Source: Gammaproteobacteria bacterium
Lineage (GTDB): Bacteria; Pseudomonadota; Gammaproteobacteria; HK1
Reading direction: 5' to 3'
Assembly: GCA_022823045.1 (NCBI GenBank)
Contig: JAJDXW010000069.1
Location: 1-37,880 of the forward strand
Length of the DNA stretch: 37,880 nt
Part shown: piece after piece, positions 10,856-21,005 of the stretch
Layout: every line of letters begins with the position of its first letter
How positions within the stretch are numbered: the first letter of the stretch is position 1
The notes under the pieces: model-generated
Databases searched by the model: none
Told to the model about the DNA's origin: nothing
Seen by the model: only the letters and a program-made list of their open reading frames with translations
Position numbers and translations under genes: made by a program

Positions 10856-11948
<1,093 letters not shown>

Positions 11949-11956
<8 letters not shown>

Positions 11957-12743
11957 GGCGGGGCTCCCGGGTCATCACCAGGACCTGGGCGATCACCACC
12001 AGGGTCATCGAGGTGACGAACACGAAGGTGCCGATCGCGTTGATCCGGGGATCGACGTTGCCCTGCAGGATCTCGAGGATCATGACCGGCACCGTCTTGT
12101 TGAGCCCCGACACGAACCACGCCACCGCGAATTCGTCGAAGGAGACCGCCGCGGTTAGGCAGAGGGCGGAGACGATCGCGGGGCGGGTGAACGGCAGGAT
12201 CACCGCGCTCATCGCCCGCCACTCGCTCGCGCCGAGGTTCCACGCCGCGGCCTCCAGGTTCGGGTCCATCTGCGCGAGGCGGAGCCGGATGATGGCCATC
12301 GCGAACGGGGAGCAGAGCACCACGTGGGCGACGATGATCGAGTGGAGCTGCCCCGACATCCCGATCCGGGAGAGGAGGGCCAGCATCGCGAGCCCCATGA
12401 TGACGAGGGGAATGGTCGGCGGGAGGAGCGCCAGCCCGAGGTAGGCGCCCTTCCCGAAGAAGCGGTAGCGAAAGTCGGTGTACGCGGTGCAGAAGCCGAT
12501 GAAGGTCGCGATCACGCTCGTTACCGCGGAGACGACGAGGCTGTGGCCGAACGCCTCCCGGACGTCGGGATCGCCGAAGATGCTCTCGTACCAGTGCAGG
12601 GTGAAGTGGCCGAGGGGGATCGTGGGGAAGCGGTCCGAATTGAACGAGAAGACGAAGCTCGCGACGATCGGGGCGAACACGAACGCGAACACCACCGCGA
12701 CGTAGGCGCGGAGGAACCACGAGATGGCCCGCCGCTCGCTCAC
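11949..12743 (-). CDS. ABC transporter permease (PotC-like)
   Basis: GTG start: VSERRAISWFLRAYVAVVFAFVFAPIVASFVFSFNSDRFPTIPLGHFTLHWYESIF... LEAAAWNLGASEWRAMSAVILPFTRPAIVSALCL (EAA loop). 4-bp overlap with upstream permease. Confidence 0.93.
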
Positions 12744-13606
12744 GCGCGCCTCCGGTAGGCAAGGGTGACCGCGGTGAAGGCGACCACGAAGAGGGTCACG
12801 ATCATCGTGCACGCGACCACCGCCGCCCGCGGCCACTGCTGCCCGGCCTTGGTGGTGTCGATGATGAGGATGCTCAGGGTGGGCGGCCGGCTGCCCCCGA
12901 GGTAGTAGGGGCTCACGAAGTCGCCGAAGGAGAGGATGAAGCAGAAGGTCGCGGCGATGATGAGCCCGATCTTCGCGAGCGGGAGGATGACGGTGAAGAC
13001 GGTGCGCATCCGCCCGCACCCGAGGTTCCAGGCCGCTTCGACGAGGCTCCGGTCGACCGCGGCGAGGCTGAAGAGCTGGAGCACCACGACCAGGGGGAGG
13101 GTGAGGGTGAGGTAGCCGACCACGGTTCCGAAGGGGGTGTTCAGCATCGGGAAGGGTCCGAGCCCGGCGAAGGAGAGGAGGCCGTTGATGATCCCTTCGT
13201 CGCCGAGAAAGATCTGCCAGGAGTAGGCGCGGACGAGGTAGCTCGTGAAGAACGGGATGATGAGGAAGAAGACGGCCCAGCGACGCGCCGCCGCCGAAAC
13301 GTGGAACGCGAGGGCGTAGGACGCGGGAAAGGCGAGGAGGCTGGTGACGGCGGTCGAGACGAGAGCCATCAGCAACGTGAAGCCGTATGCATCCCAGAAG
13401 TAGCCCCGCGTGTACATCTTCACCCAGTTGACGGAATCGAAGCCGGGGACCATCCGGTAGTTCTTGACGAGCCAGAAGGTGAGCGCGACGAGGAACAGGA
13501 GCGGGAAGACGAAGAAGACGAGCTGCCACACCACCATCGGCAGCGCGAAGGTGAGACCGTATACGGTGACCGTCCTCTTGCCGCGGAAGCGATCCGGAAC
13601 GGTCAT
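12740..13606 (-). CDS. ABC transporter permease (PotB-like)
   Basis: Polytopic; VDRSLVEAAWNLGCGRMRTVFTVILPLAKIGLIIAATFCFILSFGDFVSPYYLGG (EAA loop and PotB-like tail). Confidence 0.93.
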   Translation of the reverse strand: MTVPDRFRGKRTVTVYGLTFALPMVVWQLVFFVFPLLFLVALTFWLVKNYRMVPGFDSVNWVKMYTRGYFWDAYGFTLLMALVSTAVTSLLAFPASYALAFHVSAAARRWAVFFLIIPFFTSYLVRAYSWQIFLGDEGIINGLLSFAGLGPFPMLNTPFGTVVGYLTLTLPLVVVLQLFSLAAVDRSLVEAAWNLGCGRMRTVFTVILPLAKIGLIIAATFCFILSFGDFVSPYYLGGSRPPTLSILIIDTTKAGQQWPRAAVVACTMIVTLFVVAFTAVTLAYRRRA

Positions 13607-13775
13607 GCGCGAAGAACGGACGCGGCAGGAGGATTCGCGGGAGCGCTCACGTCATGCGCGCCGCCGTCTCTCCCCGAGCCGGGAAGAGGCGGCGCAAATC
13701 GGCGCCTCGACCTTCCCTCTCGAGGCGCCACCGGTCTTGCGCTCGAGCCGAGGCCAGCCGGAGACCGTCCGGGAG

Positions 13776-13845
13776 CGCGGGTTCCGGCCCGCGAGCGACC
13801 CAACGAACCGCATCGTCCACCTGTGCGCGGGCAGGACGCCCGCGC
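13776..13845. repeat. Pair of GC-rich hairpins with GCGGGC-type arms
   Basis: CGCGGG-ttccgg-CCCGCG (13776-13793) and GCGCGGGC-aggac-GCCCGCGC (13825-13845) in the non-coding gap between the permease and SBP genes. Confidence 0.6.
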
Positions 13846-13985
13846 TCCCCGGAACGAACCCCCCTCATGCGTCGGCACCGGCAACCTCCCGACAAGGGGA
13901 GCCCGCGCCGCGCGGGAAACCGGTCCGACGCTCCCCCGCCCGACGGGGCAATACTTGCTCCGTCGGGCCGGGGGGCGCCGCCTCG

Positions 13986-15146
13986 TCAGGCGACCTTGTA
14001 CTCGGACCAGAACTCGTTCCACTCCTCGAGGCTCTGCTGCTTCGGCGTGTCGCGGTAGTGGATGCGTCCCTGGTCAATCAGGGTGATCGGGTGGTTGGGC
14101 GCCCCGTCGACCTGACCGGTGCGGGCCGCTTCCTCCGGGGTCTGCTCCCCAAGCGCCTTGAACCCCGCTCCGGTGACGACGAAGGCCGGGTAGGCCGCCA
14201 TGTTGGCTGAGCGGACCTGGCCCTCCGGGGTCATGGTGTACTGGATGTACTTGTGGACGAGGTCCTTCTTCGTGGAGCTGGAGACGACCGAGTACGACTC
14301 CGTCCACTGGATGCCGCCCTCTTCGGGCACGGTGGAGCCGACCGGCGCACCGTCCTTCTCCAGCACCCCCGTCACCCAGTCGCCGATCCCGACGCTCGCC
14401 CAGACGTCGCCGTTCTTGAGCGACGCGAACGTCCCCCCGTAGTCGAAGAAGCCCTTGACCTGGGGCTTGAGCGAGAGCGTCTTGTCGCGCACCTGGCCCC
14501 AGGCGTCGGCGGAGATGTCGAAGGGGCCCGGATCGGTGTTGCCCTCGAGGAGACTCACCTGGCCAAGGTTCGGCAAATGCCAGTCGAAGTGGCCCACCTT
14601 GCCGGCGACCTTCGGGTTCCAGTACACGTTGTAGCTCATCGCCTCTTCGAGGCTGACCTGGTCCTTGTTGTAGGAGACCCCGAGGTGCCCGAAGCGGTTG
14701 ATCACCGAGTAGAGCTTGCCGTCCTTCCAGTGGCCCGGGAAGCTCGCGAAGCTCTCGTGCAGCAGGTCGTCGAAGGGATAGTCCGCGGGGTCCAGCTCGT
14801 CGACCAGGTCTCCGCGTTCGATGAGGATCCGCGCGTACTCCGCGTCCGTGTGGATGATGTCGAAGGTGCCGGGCGGCGACTGCGCGAGCGCGGCCAGCAT
14901 GTTGTCTCCCCCGGCGTAGTACTTCGGCTTGAACTTGACGTTGTGCTCGGCCTCGAACGCCGCGACCATGTCGGGCTCGGCAAGGCCGTACCACGACAGC
15001 ATGTTGATCTCGGTCGGCTCGGCGAATGCCTTGCGGGAGGTGATGACGAAGGGCGCGGCGGCCGCCCCCGCGAGCGCGCCGGTAGCCTTGACGAAGGTGC
15101 GCCGGGAAACTGCGCCGCGACCCGGAATCTCTCGATGTTCTGACAT
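13986..15146 (-). CDS. ABC transporter substrate-binding protein (PotD-like) with Tat-type signal
   Basis: MSEHREIPGRGAVSRRTFVKATGALAGAAAAPFVITSRKAFAEPTEINMLSWYGLAEPDMVAAFEAEHNVKFKPKYYAGGDNMLAALAQSPPGTFDIIHTDAEYARILIERGDLVDELDPADYP; same strand as the permease/ATPase genes. Confidence 0.92.
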   Translation of the reverse strand: MSEHREIPGRGAVSRRTFVKATGALAGAAAAPFVITSRKAFAEPTEINMLSWYGLAEPDMVAAFEAEHNVKFKPKYYAGGDNMLAALAQSPPGTFDIIHTDAEYARILIERGDLVDELDPADYPFDDLLHESFASFPGHWKDGKLYSVINRFGHLGVSYNKDQVSLEEAMSYNVYWNPKVAGKVGHFDWHLPNLGQVSLLEGNTDPGPFDISADAWGQVRDKTLSLKPQVKGFFDYGGTFASLKNGDVWASVGIGDWVTGVLEKDGAPVGSTVPEEGGIQWTESYSVVSSSTKKDLVHKYIQYTMTPEGQVRSANMAAYPAFVVTGAGFKALGEQTPEEAARTGQVDGAPNHPITLIDQGRIHYRDTPKQQSLEEWNEFWSEYKVA

Positions 15147-15309
15147 GGTTGAGTTCCTCCTCGGCCAAACGTCTTTGGCGCCGCCGCCCGGCGGCGGCCG
15201 GCGCCGCGGCGCCCGAGCGACCGCGCATGGATCGTTCGTCGGATATTAGCGCCTCGCCCGGAGCGTGCAAGACTATTCGGGATGCGTGCGAGGCTCGGGC
15301 CGGGACCGG

Positions 15310-15413
15310 GGCCTCCCGGGAGCACGGCTTCCCGGGCGCGGGCTTTCCGCCCGCGGACGGCCGAAGGCCCGCCGTTTCCCGCGCGCGCAGGATGACCGTG
15401 CTCCCGGGAGGCC
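15310..15413. repeat. Long 18-bp inverted repeat enclosing nested hairpins (candidate structured leader, operator or palindromic repeat element)
   Basis: ggcctcccgggagcacgg (15310-15327) is the exact reverse complement of ccgtgctcccgggaggcc (15396-15413). Nested: CGCGGGC-tttcc-GCCCGCG (15337-15355) and GGCC-gaa-GGCC (15359-15369). Confidence 0.75.
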
Positions 15414-15456
15414 GGCGGCACGGACCGTGCGAAGCGCAACGCAGGGGATCGAAGCG

Positions 15457-16857
15457 ATGAACCGGATGCAATTTCGCCGACTGTTCAAGACCGCCGGCCC
15501 GGCGGTGCTGCCGGTGATCCACGTGCGCGACACGGTGCAGGCGTGCCGGAACGCCTCGGTCGCGATCGAGGCGGGGGCGCAGGGCGTGTTCCTCATCAAC
15601 CACGACTTCCCCCGCGAGGAGCTGGTGCCGATCCTCGGCGAGGTGCGGGCCCGGTTCCCGTCGCTCTGGCTCGGGGTCAACTTCCTTGCGGTGACCGGCC
15701 GGGACGCGTTTCCGGTGCTCGGCCGGCTCCAGGCCGAGGGAGTCGAGATCGACGCGTACTGGGCGGACGACGCCCGGATCGACGAGCGCGCGGCGACGGA
15801 CGGGCAGATCGAGGCGGCGGCAATCGCGGCCGCCCGCGAGGAGAGCGGCTGGACGGGCCTCTACTTCGGGGGGACCGCGTTCAAGAAGCAGCGCCCGGTC
15901 GCGCCCGCCGACCACGAGACCGCGGCCCGGACGGCGGCCGGGTGGATGGACGCGGTGACGACGTCGGGGGTCGCGACGGGGAGGGCGGCGGACCGGGCCA
16001 AGATCGCCGCCTTCCGGCGCGGGTGCGGGGATGCGCCGCTCGCTCTCGCCTCCGGGGTCACGCCGGAGAACGCGGCCGGCTACGCCCCGGAGGTGGACGC
16101 GATGCTGGTCGCGACCGGGGTCAACCGCCCCGGCGATTTCTACGAGATCGACCCGGCGCGGCTACGCCGGCTCCTCGCGGCGACCCGGTCGGCGGGCGCG
16201 GCGGGCGCCGGAACCGCACCGGCCGCCTGCGCCGATTTACCGGGCGAGCGCGCCTACCTCGGGGCGATGGCCCCGAACGTCAAGGGCGAGACCTTCGCCT
16301 GGCTCGACCCGTCCACCCTCTACATCAACGCGGCCATGTTCCAGGCGGTGGTCGACGACCTCGTCGCGCCCTTCGACGCCGCCGACGTCGACGTGGTCGC
16401 GGGATTCGACGCCATGGGCTTCGTGCTCGGGTCGGCCATCGCGGTCCGGCTCGGGAAGGGCTTCCTCACACTGCGCAAGGCGGGAAAGCTCCCGGTCGAA
16501 GCCGACACCGTCGAGTTCGTGAACTACTCGGGGCGAACGCAACAGATGGAGATGCGCACCCCCGCCTTTCGCCCGGGGACGCGGGTGCTCCTCGTCGACC
16601 AGTGGGTCGAGACTGGCGGGACGATGGACGCCGGCGTGCGCCTCGTCGAGGGCCAGGGCGGGGTGGTGGCGGGGATCGCGACGGTGTGCATCGAGGAGAA
16701 CGAGCGCACCCGGGCCTTTCGCGAGCGCTACCGCTGCTCGACCTCCGTGCCCCCCGGGAGCGAGTGGCAGCGCCAGTGCAACGCCCAGCGGCTCGACACC
16801 TTCGAACGCTACGACCCCGCCGTCTACTTCCCGGAGACCGCAGCGAGCGCGCGCTGA
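15457..16857 (+). CDS. Fusion protein: N-terminal BtpA/SgcQ-like TIM-barrel domain plus C-terminal adenine-phosphoribosyltransferase-like PRTase domain
   Basis: N-terminus: MNRMQFRRLFKTAGPAVLPVIHVRDTVQACRNASVAIEAGAQGVFLINHDFPREEL...LASGVTPENAAGYAPEVDAMLVATGVNRPGDFYEIDPARLRRLL. C-terminus: VDVVAGFDAMGFVLGSAIAVRLGKGFLTLRKAGKLP... RVLLVDQWVETGGTMDAGVRLVEGQGG (PRPP-loop-like). Confidence 0.85.
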   Translation: MNRMQFRRLFKTAGPAVLPVIHVRDTVQACRNASVAIEAGAQGVFLINHDFPREELVPILGEVRARFPSLWLGVNFLAVTGRDAFPVLGRLQAEGVEIDAYWADDARIDERAATDGQIEAAAIAAAREESGWTGLYFGGTAFKKQRPVAPADHETAARTAAGWMDAVTTSGVATGRAADRAKIAAFRRGCGDAPLALASGVTPENAAGYAPEVDAMLVATGVNRPGDFYEIDPARLRRLLAATRSAGAAGAGTAPAACADLPGERAYLGAMAPNVKGETFAWLDPSTLYINAAMFQAVVDDLVAPFDAADVDVVAGFDAMGFVLGSAIAVRLGKGFLTLRKAGKLPVEADTVEFVNYSGRTQQMEMRTPAFRPGTRVLLVDQWVETGGTMDAGVRLVEGQGGVVAGIATVCIEENERTRAFRERYRCSTSVPPGSEWQRQCNAQRLDTFERYDPAVYFPETAASAR

Positions 16858-16960: not shown

Positions 16961-17614
16961 CTACCAGGGGTGCTCGCGCCCCTCCCAGGTCCAGAAGCGG
17001 CCGTGCCCCGACTCGTCGAGGGAGGCCATGAGGTCGCAGATCCCGCGGGCGCTCTCCTCCACCGAGACCGCGGCGTTGCGCCCGCCCATGTCGGTGCGGA
17101 CCCACCCGGGGTGGATGACGACCGCGAGGCAGCCCCGCTCGCGCCAGCTCCCCTCGATCTCGCGGAACCGGTCGTTGAGCGCGGCCTTGGAGTCGCCGTA
17201 CTTCCCGAGGCTCCGGGTGGAGCCGCGGCGCGCGCCCATCATGCTGGTGATGAGCGCGATCTTGCGCTGATCGCTGCGCAGCACCGCGGCCATCAGGCTC
17301 TCCGCCACCTCGAACGGGGCCTCGGCGTTGATGCGGTTGACGGTGGCCGCCCGCATGCCGCGGCCGTAGACGCCGGCGTTGTGGATGAGGACATCGACGG
17401 CCTCGTCCTCGAGGGCCTCGCGCAGGGCGCGTTGCTGCGGGCGATCCGTCACCTCGAGCCCATGGACGTGCACGTCCCCCGCGACCTCCCCGAGCGCCCC
17501 CGGGCGCCCCGGAGTGCGGGTCGTCGCGTGCACCCGCCACCCTTCGCTCGCGTACCTCTCGACGAGACCGAGTCCGATACCCCGGCTCGCCCCGATGATC
17601 GCCGCAGTGGGCAT
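16961..17614 (-). CDS. SDR family oxidoreductase
   Basis: MPTAAIIGASRGIGLGLVERYASEGWRVHATTRTPG... LIHNAGVYGRG... GKYGDSKAALNDRFREIEG. Confidence 0.88.
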   Translation of the reverse strand: MPTAAIIGASRGIGLGLVERYASEGWRVHATTRTPGRPGALGEVAGDVHVHGLEVTDRPQQRALREALEDEAVDVLIHNAGVYGRGMRAATVNRINAEAPFEVAESLMAAVLRSDQRKIALITSMMGARRGSTRSLGKYGDSKAALNDRFREIEGSWRERGCLAVVIHPGWVRTDMGGRNAAVSVEESARGICDLMASLDESGHGRFWTWEGREHPW

Positions 17615-17732
17615 GTTCGTCCTCCCCGATTGCATCCCGTGCGAGCCGGGCGCGGACCGCGCACCCCGCCGCCTGCACCGTCATTATCATGGACGGACGA
17701 AGGCACGGCGATCCGGGGGGAGGCATTCCGCC

Positions 17733-18542
17733 ATGAACGAGAAGGCCGACGACAGGGCGGCAGGCCCGGAATCGGGCGCCGCTTTCCCCTTCCCGCCCCG
17801 ACCACTCGGCCGGCGGACACTCGCCGCCGCGGCAGGAACCGTCCTCGCGCTCGCGTGCGCGGCGCCTACCCAATCCGCCGACCCCCATGCCGACATGCGC
17901 CGCGGCATGCTGGAGGCGATCGCGGACACCACCGCCCGCACCGCCGGGAGCACCGGCGTCGAGGCGATCGCTCCCGAGGTGATGGACGCGATCGAACGGG
18001 TGCCGCGGCACGAGTTCGTTCCGCCCGAGATCGCGGACCGTGCCTACGAGAACCGGCCCCTGCCCATCGGCCACGGGCAGACGATCTCCCAGCCCTACAT
18101 CGTCGCCCTCATGACCCACCTCCTCGGCCTTGACTCCCCCCACCGGGTGCTCGAGATCGGCACCGGATCGGGATACCAGGCGGCGGTCCTCGCGGAGCTC
18201 GTCGAGCGGGTGCACACCATCGAGATCGTGCCGCCCCTCGCCCGACAGGCGAAGGAGCGGCTGTCCCGGCTCGGCTACCGCAACGTCGAGGTGCGCCTCG
18301 GGGACGGGTACTACGGATGGCGCGCCGCCGGACCGTTCGACGCGATCGTGGTCACCGCCGCCGCCTCCCACGTGCCGCCGCCGCTGGTCGAGCAGCTCGC
18401 CCCGAACGGGGTGCTGGTGATCCCCGTCGGCGAGCAGTTCTCGGTCCAGATGCTGCTCCTCGTGCGCAAGCACGAAGACGGCGCGGTGAGCGTTCGTCAG
18501 ATCCTGCCGGTGCGGTTCGTGCCCCTGACCGGCGGGCACTAG
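17733..18542 (+). CDS. Protein-L-isoaspartate O-methyltransferase-like protein with an N-terminal export-type signal
   Basis: MNEKADDRAAGPESGAAFPFPPRPLGRRTLAAAAGTVLALACAAPTQSADPHADMRRGML... RVPRHEFVPPEIADRAYENRPLPIGHGQTISQPYIVALMTHLL... VLEIGTGSGYQAAVLAELV. Confidence 0.92.
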   Translation: MNEKADDRAAGPESGAAFPFPPRPLGRRTLAAAAGTVLALACAAPTQSADPHADMRRGMLEAIADTTARTAGSTGVEAIAPEVMDAIERVPRHEFVPPEIADRAYENRPLPIGHGQTISQPYIVALMTHLLGLDSPHRVLEIGTGSGYQAAVLAELVERVHTIEIVPPLARQAKERLSRLGYRNVEVRLGDGYYGWRAAGPFDAIVVTAAASHVPPPLVEQLAPNGVLVIPVGEQFSVQMLLLVRKHEDGAVSVRQILPVRFVPLTGGH

Positions 18543-18551
18543 AGCCCGTCC

Positions 18552-21005
18552 ATGGGCGACGAAGAGCGGGCACCGGGTGTCCTGCTGCTCGCCGCGGTGG
18601 CGCTCCTCTCCGCCGCCACCCTCGGCTACGAGGTTCTGCTGACCCGGCTCCTCGCGATCGTCCAGTGGCACCACCTCGCATTCCTCGTGATCAGCACCGC
18701 CCTCCTCGGATTCGGGGCGAGCGGCGCCTTCCTGGTGGTGGTCGGCCATCGGCTCCGGGTCTCCGCCGGACCCTTCCTCGCCCTCTGCGCCCTCGCGTTC
18801 GCGGTCGCGGCCCCCGTCTGCTTCGCGATCGCCCAGCACGTCCCCTTCAACGTGCTGGAGCTGCCCTGGTCGCTCCGGCCGCTCGGCTGGCTGCTCGTCA
18901 TCGAGGTCTTCCTCGCCATTCCCTTCTTCATCGCCGCGACCGCGATCGGGCGCACCCTCATCGTGTTCGGGGACCGCCTCTCGCGGGTCTACGCGGCGGA
19001 CCTCGCGGGCGCCGGGGGCGGAGCGGTCCTCGCGGTGGCTTTGCTCTCGTGGTTCCCGGCGGAACGGACCCTGGACGCCCTCGGGGCGATGGCAGCCCTC
19101 GCGGGAGCGATCGCCGCGGTCCGGGCCCGGCGGGCGACCCGGTGGGCCCTCCTCGCTCCCGCGGCCGGCATCGTCTTCCTGCTGGTCTCCGGCCAGGGGT
19201 ACTGGAACGAGCTTCGGATATCGCCGTTCAAGCCGCTCCCGCAAGCCCTTCGGGTGAGCGGTGCGAAGCTCGCCGAGACCCGGTCGGGCCCGCTCGGGCG
19301 CGTGAGCGCGGTCGAGAACGAGAAGGTGCCGCTCCGGTGGGCGCCGGGACTCAGCCTCCTCGCCCGCGCTCCGGTCCCCGAGCAGGTGGCCCTCTTCGTC
19401 GACGGCGACGGGCCGATTGCGATTCCGCGCAAACGGCGGGAGGCACCACCGCCCGCCTATCTCGACGACCTCCCCTCCGCCCTTCCCTACTACCTCTTCG
19501 AATGGCCCCGCCGCGTGCTGGTGCTCGGGGCGGGCGGGGGTGCTCCGGTCCTCCAGGCGCTCGGAGGCGGGGCGCGTACGGTGGACGCGGTCGAGCTCCA
19601 GCCGGACATCGTCGCCCTCGCACGGGCCCGGTACCGGAGGTTCTCCGGCGGCGCGCTCGTGCATCCCGCCGTGAATCTCCACGTCGGCGACCCCCGTGCG
19701 TTCGTCGAGGCGGCGCGCGGGGAGGAGTACGACCTCATCCAGGTCGATGCGCTCGGGGCGAGCCCGTCCGGGCTCCATGCCCTCAAGGCGGAGCGGCTCC
19801 TCACCGTGGAGTCGATGCGGGCCATGCTGGCGCGGCTCGCCCCCCGCGGGCTCGTCGCGTTCACCGGCTGGAACGAGCTTCCGCCGCGGAGCGGGCCGCG
19901 GCTCCTCGCGACCCTGCTCGAATCCCTCGCGGCGGAAGGGATCGGGCCCGCCGCGGAGCACCTCGCGTGGGTCCGGAGCTGGAACACGAACACCCTCGTC
20001 GCGAGCCGTGCGCCGCTCTCCGGGGGGCAGGTCGCGGCGGTCCGCTCCTTCGCCCGTTCCCGGGCCTTCGACCTCGTCCACGTACCGGGTATGGAGGCGG
20101 ACGAGGCCAACCGCTTCAACGTGATGAAGCGTCCCTGGTTCCACGAGGCGGCGGCGCGCCTCCTCGGCCCGGAGCGGGAGGAGTTCCTCCGCGACTACAA
20201 GTTCGACATCCGGCCCGCGACCGACGACCGGCCCTACCTCTGGAGCTTCTTCCGGTGGGCGCACGCGCCCGAGATTCTCGCCTTGGGCCGCGAGGGCGGG
20301 ATCGGCCTCCTCGCGATCGGCTACCTCGCCCTCCCCGCCGCCCTCGTCCAGGCCGCGGCCGCGAGCGCGGCCCTCATCCTGCTCCCCCTCCTCCTCGTGC
20401 GGCGACGCTCCGTCGGCGCACGAGGCGGAGCGCGGCGCGGGGCGGCCCTCGCCGGCTTCTTCGCCCTCGGGCTCGCGTTCCTCATGATGGAGATCGCGTT
20501 CATCAGCCGGTTCACGGTAGTCCTCAGCCATCCGCTGCACGCCCTCGTCGTGGTGCTCGCGGCGTTCCTCGTCTTCGCCGGCGTCGGAAGCTGGCTCGCG
20601 GGCCGGCGCGAGTCGGGCGAAGAGCACGGTTCCGTCGCCTGGCCGACGGCCGGGATCGTGGTCCTCGCGTTGGCCTGTCTCGCCGCCCTTCCCCACCTCA
20701 CGAGCGTGCTCCTCGGCGCCGCGCCCCACGTCAAGATCGCGGCCGCGGTTGCCCTCGTCGCACCGCTCGCGACGTTCATGGGAATGCCCTTCCCGCGCGC
20801 CCTCGCCCGCCTCCGACGCCTCGACCCCGATCTTGTTCCCTGGGCGTGGGGGGTCAACGGCTGCGCATCGGTCATCGGCGCGGTGCTCGCGACCGGGCTC
20901 GCGATCCACCTCGGCCAGACGCTCGTCATCACCTGCGCCGCCCTCCTCTACGCCGCGGCAGCGCTCGCCCTCAACCGCATGGGAGCGCCCCGCGAGCACG
21001 GCTGA
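18552..21005 (+). CDS. Polytopic membrane protein with spermidine-synthase-like domain
   Basis: N-terminal TM region (GVLLLAAVALLSAATLGYEVLLTRLLAIVQWHHLAFLVISTALLGFG), soluble Rossmann-like domain VLVLGAGGGAPVLQALGGGARTVDAVELQPDIVALARARYR... YDLIQVDALG, DDRPYLWSFFRW, then a C-terminal TM block. Confidence 0.85.
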   Translation: MGDEERAPGVLLLAAVALLSAATLGYEVLLTRLLAIVQWHHLAFLVISTALLGFGASGAFLVVVGHRLRVSAGPFLALCALAFAVAAPVCFAIAQHVPFNVLELPWSLRPLGWLLVIEVFLAIPFFIAATAIGRTLIVFGDRLSRVYAADLAGAGGGAVLAVALLSWFPAERTLDALGAMAALAGAIAAVRARRATRWALLAPAAGIVFLLVSGQGYWNELRISPFKPLPQALRVSGAKLAETRSGPLGRVSAVENEKVPLRWAPGLSLLARAPVPEQVALFVDGDGPIAIPRKRREAPPPAYLDDLPSALPYYLFEWPRRVLVLGAGGGAPVLQALGGGARTVDAVELQPDIVALARARYRRFSGGALVHPAVNLHVGDPRAFVEAARGEEYDLIQVDALGASPSGLHALKAERLLTVESMRAMLARLAPRGLVAFTGWNELPPRSGPRLLATLLESLAAEGIGPAAEHLAWVRSWNTNTLVASRAPLSGGQVAAVRSFARSRAFDLVHVPGMEADEANRFNVMKRPWFHEAAARLLGPEREEFLRDYKFDIRPATDDRPYLWSFFRWAHAPEILALGREGGIGLLAIGYLALPAALVQAAAASAALILLPLLLVRRRSVGARGGARRGAALAGFFALGLAFLMMEIAFISRFTVVLSHPLHALVVVLAAFLVFAGVGSWLAGRRESGEEHGSVAWPTAGIVVLALACLAALPHLTSVLLGAAPHVKIAAAVALVAPLATFMGMPFPRALARLRRLDPDLVPWAWGVNGCASVIGAVLATGLAIHLGQTLVITCAALLYAAAALALNRMGAPREHG

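Follow-up and report, generated by a model that had tools for sequence, protein, structure and literature searches.

A conserved fusion of a BtpA-type barrel and a non-APRT type I phosphoribosyltransferase, divergent from an ABC transporter and possibly a two-step enzyme for an imported heterocycle

Why would a BtpA-type barrel be joined to a phosphoribosyltransferase (PRTase) in one polypeptide, and what might such a protein do? The question is raised by a gene in a 37,880-nucleotide contig from a gammaproteobacterium (GenBank JAJDXW010000069.1; the whole stretch is referred to here as the window). The original prediction described an uninterrupted 466-aa open reading frame with a BtpA/SgcQ-like N half and a PRTase C half, and proposed that the two catalyze consecutive steps on a base or ribotide imported by a divergent PotABCD-like transporter. 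The frame reads as described: the plus strand is open from the ATG at 15457 through the stop codon at 16857 (Table 1). (A longer mechanical ORF starts upstream, at GTG 15265; the first Met, at 15457, is also the alignment start for two homologues.) The Ala/Gly-rich linker, which had been placed near 16180-16245, is present, reaches to about 16254, and varies among relatives. Downstream, at 17379-21005, the window encodes a protein-isoaspartate methyltransferase whose N terminus is longer by about 195 residues and then an 817-aa protein with a weak match to spermidine synthase.

Table 1. Features of the fusion gene and of the divergent transporter in the window
Feature	Coordinates	Strand	Remarks
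ABC ATPase	10856..11956	-	TOBE domain
ABC permease 2	11949..12743	-	GTG start overlaps permease 1 stop
ABC permease 1	12740..13606	-	
Tat-signal solute-binding protein	13986..15146	-	relatives include binding proteins encoded next to creatininase genes
Divergent intergenic region	15147..15456	.	35-nt imperfect inverted repeat, arms 15293-15327 and 15396-15430
Fusion gene, 466 aa	15457..16857	+	BtpA-family barrel joined through a variable linker to a type I PRTase
N domain, divergent BtpA-type barrel	15457..16185	+	
N-domain conserved residues			H22, N75, W102/D104, K143/Q145, SGxxTG (170-175), ASGxxxxN (198-205), VATG (218-221)
Ala/Gly-rich linker	16180..16254	+	matches the gene boundary of unfused relatives
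C domain, type I PRTase, non-APRT subfamily	16255..16857	+	includes C-terminal extension and stop codon
FAWLDPS	16294..16314	+	in place of APRT hood motif P-G-I/V-F-R-D-I
NYSG	16522..16533	+	in place of APRT flexible-loop LEYG; glutamate absent
PRPP motif VLLVDQWVETGGT	16585..16623	+	Gln instead of second acidic residue

Copies of the fusion with about 70% identity are present in three further genomes of the family (G014, G016, and G017, the last copy being 5'-truncated). When these relatives are compared with the window fusion, both halves have a dN near 0.2, a dS of 0.7-0.9, and a similar dN/dS, about 0.24-0.34; together with the variable linker, this is the pattern expected of two selected domains. 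A misassembly or frameshift artifact, which the original prediction had named as a possible refutation, is ruled out by the recurrence of the fusion in three other genomes and by the similar dN/dS of its halves. In addition, although the estimated contamination of the window's genome is 7.3%, a foreign contig is unlikely because such fusions exist in the same family. The truncated G017 copy (L030 1-512) is without the first 146 residues; only residues 147-461 match, the upstream end of its contig is unrelated, and a search of the G017 genome for the binding-protein gene found none.

Insight into the origin of the fusion comes from more distant bacteria in which the halves are separate. In Rhodovulum sp. 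P5 the barrel and the PRTase are separate annotated genes that overlap by 4 bp, in Pseudohalocynthiibacter they are 2 nt apart, and in two further genomes the separate genes are adjacent with overlaps of 8 bp (G310) and 4 bp (G206); in another (G230), some 7 kb separate the PRTase gene from the barrel gene, and the two are on opposite strands. Because the separate halves are mostly adjacent or overlapping, the fusion is best read as the joining of two genes that were probably already working together. The same transporter is divergent to the barrel gene in G014, G016, G206, G310, and Rhodovulum, and the binding-protein gene is divergent to it in G230. Unfused barrel and PRTase genes thus do occur together beside the Pot-like transporter (Rhodovulum, G206, and G310), the co-occurrence for which the original prediction proposed a survey. 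The occurrence of the halves as a fusion or as adjacent genes with one transporter supports a functional coupling between them.

Among the 369 genomes of the class sample, the barrel (E <1e-80), the PRTase (E <1e-35), and the binding protein (E <1e-60) have an identical distribution, each occurring in four genomes (G000, G206, G230, and G310); barrel matches in four others are only weak (E 2e-9 to 5e-4), and the phylum genome sample held no other carrier. This shows that the three genes travel together; they are neighbors, and hence do not count as independent evidence gene by gene. Other genes occur near some copies. A PRPP synthetase gene directly follows the barrel-PRTase pair in Pseudohalocynthiibacter, and a cytosine-deaminase-like gene ends the Rhodovulum transporter operon and lies downstream of the barrel gene in G230. 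Genomes that lack the cassette can carry the deaminase-like gene too, so its link to the cassette is loose. In a comparison of G014 and G016, no conserved gene order was seen in the further flanks. (The binding proteins of G014 (L085) and G016 are 62% and 81% identical to that of the window, while both fusions are about 70% identical; a gene replacement is possible for the G014 binding protein.)

The C half scores above the Pfam cut-off for PF00156 (35.6 bits against 26.3, residues 310-428), and the TGGT loop, as had been noted, is retained in nine of nine orthologues; on these grounds it is classed as a type I PRTase. Its best solved relatives are adenine PRTases (APRTs), and the earlier description "APRT-like" holds at the superfamily level only, since the adenine-PRTase signatures (the LEYG glutamate, the hood, EARGF, and DD) are replaced. 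When nine orthologues (four fused, five unfused) are aligned with eight APRTs from the same and related genomes, the orthologues have FAWLDP[ST] where the APRTs have F[RK]DI.P, DAMGF where they have EARGF, and NYS[GRA] plus one inserted residue where they have LEYG; DQW[VI]ETGGT is common to all nine orthologues, versus DD..ATGGT in the APRTs, and the orthologues have a C-terminal extension. The D-to-Q replacement in the PRPP motif was correctly noted, although the end given at 16626 takes in the next Met. The NCBIfam APRT equivalog cut-offs are all missed (107.2 against 170, 98.7 against 125, and 93.8 against 185.85), and an ordinary adenine PRTase is also encoded in the same genome, on contig C79. 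As judged from motifs and scores, the PRTase half is not an adenine PRTase.

The Gln of the PRPP motif (Q382) is invariant across the nine orthologues, which indicates a fixed feature of the subfamily, not a lesion. This invariance, together with weak matches of the C half to adenine phosphopsicosyltransferase and to PurR repressors, could be taken to mean that the domain functions without ordinary PRPP, the D-to-Q change marking either another pyrophosphorylated sugar phosphate or a non-catalytic sensing of ligand. Such a role is quite improbable given that the TGGT loop and an RK(A/S)GKL-type segment are retained and that a PRPP synthetase gene adjoins one barrel-PRTase pair; moreover, the second acid is also absent from uracil PRTases. 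In our judgment, the C domain very probably uses PRPP.

The N half is more divergent. The window protein matches only the C-terminal part of the PF03437 model (residues 151-242), at 28.2 bits, just below the cut-off of 30 (hmmscan); in a genome search the score is 29.7, or 30.5 with frame neighbors. The cut-off is passed by the unfused Rhodovulum orthologue (38.1 bits) and by a phage relative (36.1), and a profile of the family aligns with canonical BtpA over 228 columns (hhalign, E 7.7e-8, probability 94.5). By profile comparison, the N domain is a distant homologue of BtpA along the whole barrel, in keeping with the BtpA/SgcQ-like assignment first made. Its relatives, 34-70% identical, include plasmid singletons in Variovorax, Bosea, Delftia, and Pseudomonas mendocina and members in two large phages, and in a tree the window-type barrels branch apart from three canonical BtpA proteins with support 98/96. 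(The phage records, of 485 and 642 kb (L056 and L057), hold BtpA-like genes; one of the phage copies has a nucleoside deoxyribosyltransferase-like gene nearby, and a PHROGs scan gave no result.)

Several residues are invariant in 13 relatives: H22, N75, W102, D104, K143, Q145, SGxxTG, and the strand 7/8 motifs. A low-confidence AlphaFold model of the N domain alone (mean pLDDT 39) gives a hint that the first of these invariant residues may sit at predicted strand ends. The family profile has weak, mostly local matches to solved phosphate-binding barrels, including the strand 7/8 region, and over that same region the phage relative passes the cut-off for phosphoribosylanthranilate isomerase (PRAI, or TrpF; PF00697, 26.9 bits against 22.7); we infer a phosphate site in the barrel. 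The window protein itself has no PF00697 match up to E 1, and the TrpF catalytic residues could not be mapped onto its N domain. On a plasmid of Variovorax sp. WDL1 (L045 9007-10409), a BtpA-like gene overlaps a PRAI-like gene, giving two consecutive barrel genes.

Must the barrel be an enzyme? The role in photosystem I biogenesis that the original prediction gave for BtpA is dated: a 2024 review reports that the cyanobacterial protein stabilizes glutamyl-tRNA reductase and does not assemble photosystem I (PMC11449065). The literature searched contained no enzymatic activity for BtpA/SgcQ or BtpA barrels and no treatment of BtpA function together with PRTases. Given this stabilizing function and the distant relationship between the N domain and BtpA, the PRTase might be the sole enzyme, salvaging an imported base, with the barrel as a scaffold or stabilizer that regulates it. 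We consider this unlikely, as the predicted catalytic face carries polar and glycine residues that do not vary among the 13 relatives, a set that includes phage and plasmid singletons without a recognized PRTase gene alongside.

The four genes divergent to the fusion (10856-15146, minus strand) encode a binding protein, two permeases, and an ATPase. Of the label "PotABCD-like", the linkage and the Pot-like superfamily and gene set stand, but the tested subunits miss the polyamine equivalog cut-offs (PotA 307.6 against 482; PotB/PotH 93.7-103.3 against 348-489; PotD 33.7 against 582), and the transporters most closely related to it are found next to creatinine-degradation genes. Eight plasmid loci encoding related binding proteins were opened, and in six the transporter adjoins both a creatininase gene and an M24 creatinase-like gene; on those plasmids it is a candidate creatinine importer. 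(These creatininase-type loci (L059-L062, L064, and L066) mostly include a LysR-type regulator and the Pot-like transporter, on plasmids of several proteobacteria.) In a binding-protein tree, cassette and creatininase-linked members form two separate groups (support 88/96), so the ligand need not be shared; where the neighbors of cassettes were annotated, no creatininase gene was seen beside them. That the transporter imports polyamines, with the fusion unrelated to its ligand, would be very surprising: its nearest named models are polyamine transporter families, yet their cut-offs are missed by a wide margin, the closest relatives adjoin creatinine genes, and the gene linkage is kept across genera. 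Within the intergenic region, the inverted repeat (15293-15430) holds a 16-nt perfect core; no such repeat was found at the same position in G014 or G016, and a riboswitch looked for in 15147-15456 was not found, nor was an Rfam match.

Taken together, the creatininase-linked relatives, the deaminase-like genes, and the PRPP synthetase gene suggest that a ring-shaped nitrogen compound and PRPP are involved. The reading that we prefer, at chances just short of even, is that the fusion is the bifunctional enzyme of an uptake-and-conversion cassette in which import would be followed by the PRTase reaction and then by a barrel step on the ribotide. The divergent ABC transporter would import a small nitrogen heterocycle, either nucleobase-like or creatinine-like, and the PRTase domain would couple it with PRPP, the products being a 5'-phosphoribosyl adduct and pyrophosphate. 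The BtpA-type barrel would bind the 5'-phosphate of this ribotide through its strand 7/8 motif, and would then perform the next step, which might be an isomerization, a ring opening, or a lysis. The logic would be that of TrpD and then TrpF, assembled from unrelated or distantly related parts. As we judge it, the acceptor is probably the imported heterocycle, a catalytic second step by the barrel is evenly balanced, and TrpF-type isomerization specifically is at best rather unlikely; the identities of the substrate and of the barrel reaction are guesses. Weighing against a two-step enzyme are the failure of the papers searched to provide a BtpA-barrel activity, the stabilizer role of the cyanobacterial protein (PMC11449065), the lack of a PRAI match or mappable TrpF residues in the window N domain, the distant PRTase gene of G230, and the presence of deaminase and PRPP synthetase genes in some loci only.

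The order of events might also be reversed, with the barrel acting first on a phosphorylated nucleoside-like compound, from which it would free or reshape a base for salvage by the PRTase. Carbohydrate-kinase genes adjoin canonical BtpA genes, so BtpA barrels may meet phosphorylated substrates, and the deoxyribosyltransferase-like gene near one phage copy would also fit. However, no kinase gene was recognized in the cassette and the transporter is related to creatinine-linked rather than nucleoside importers, which makes the reversed order improbable.

If import, ribotide formation, and a barrel step do follow one another, the orphan BtpA family gains an enzymatic activity. The locus may then represent an undescribed route, a possibility clearly below an even chance, in which a new PRTase subfamily activates an imported nitrogen heterocycle as its ribotide and a BtpA-type barrel transforms the ribotide. 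A natural BtpA-PRTase fusion conserved beside one transporter predicts a ligand class and a direct two-step assay, and would define a PRTase subfamily whose PRPP and base sites are unlike those of every adenine enzyme compared (eight APRTs).

How does the cassette compare with known systems? With the PotABCD polyamine transporter it has superfamily and gene set in common, but it misses all polyamine equivalog cut-offs. The creatininase-linked transporters (on Paracoccus, Shinella, Mesorhizobium, Leisingera, Microvirga, and Azoarcus plasmids) have the same gene set, and their binding proteins are 58-67% identical to the Rhodovulum cassette member; they differ in falling into a separate tree group and in that the annotation shows neither a barrel gene nor a PRTase gene next to the creatininase sets. 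The PRTase domain is, like APRT (TIGR01090, NF002632-NF002636), a type I PRTase by sequence, with a TGGT loop and an RKxGKL-type segment; unlike APRT, it has replaced hood, EARGF, LEYG, and DD motifs, a one-residue loop insertion, and a C-terminal extension. The barrel shares with the BtpA/SgcQ family (PF03437, TIGR00259) full-length profile homology and the SGxxTG and strand 7/8 motifs, whereas its aligned identity is about 23%, it lies on a separate branch, and it is fused or operonic with a PRTase. Finally, although the window barrel has no PF00697 match and the fold of TrpD differs from that of type I PRTases, the window's type, the proposed order of a PRTase followed by a phosphate-binding barrel would be that of TrpD-TrpF; a phage relative scores as PRAI, and the Variovorax relative adjoins a PRAI-like gene.
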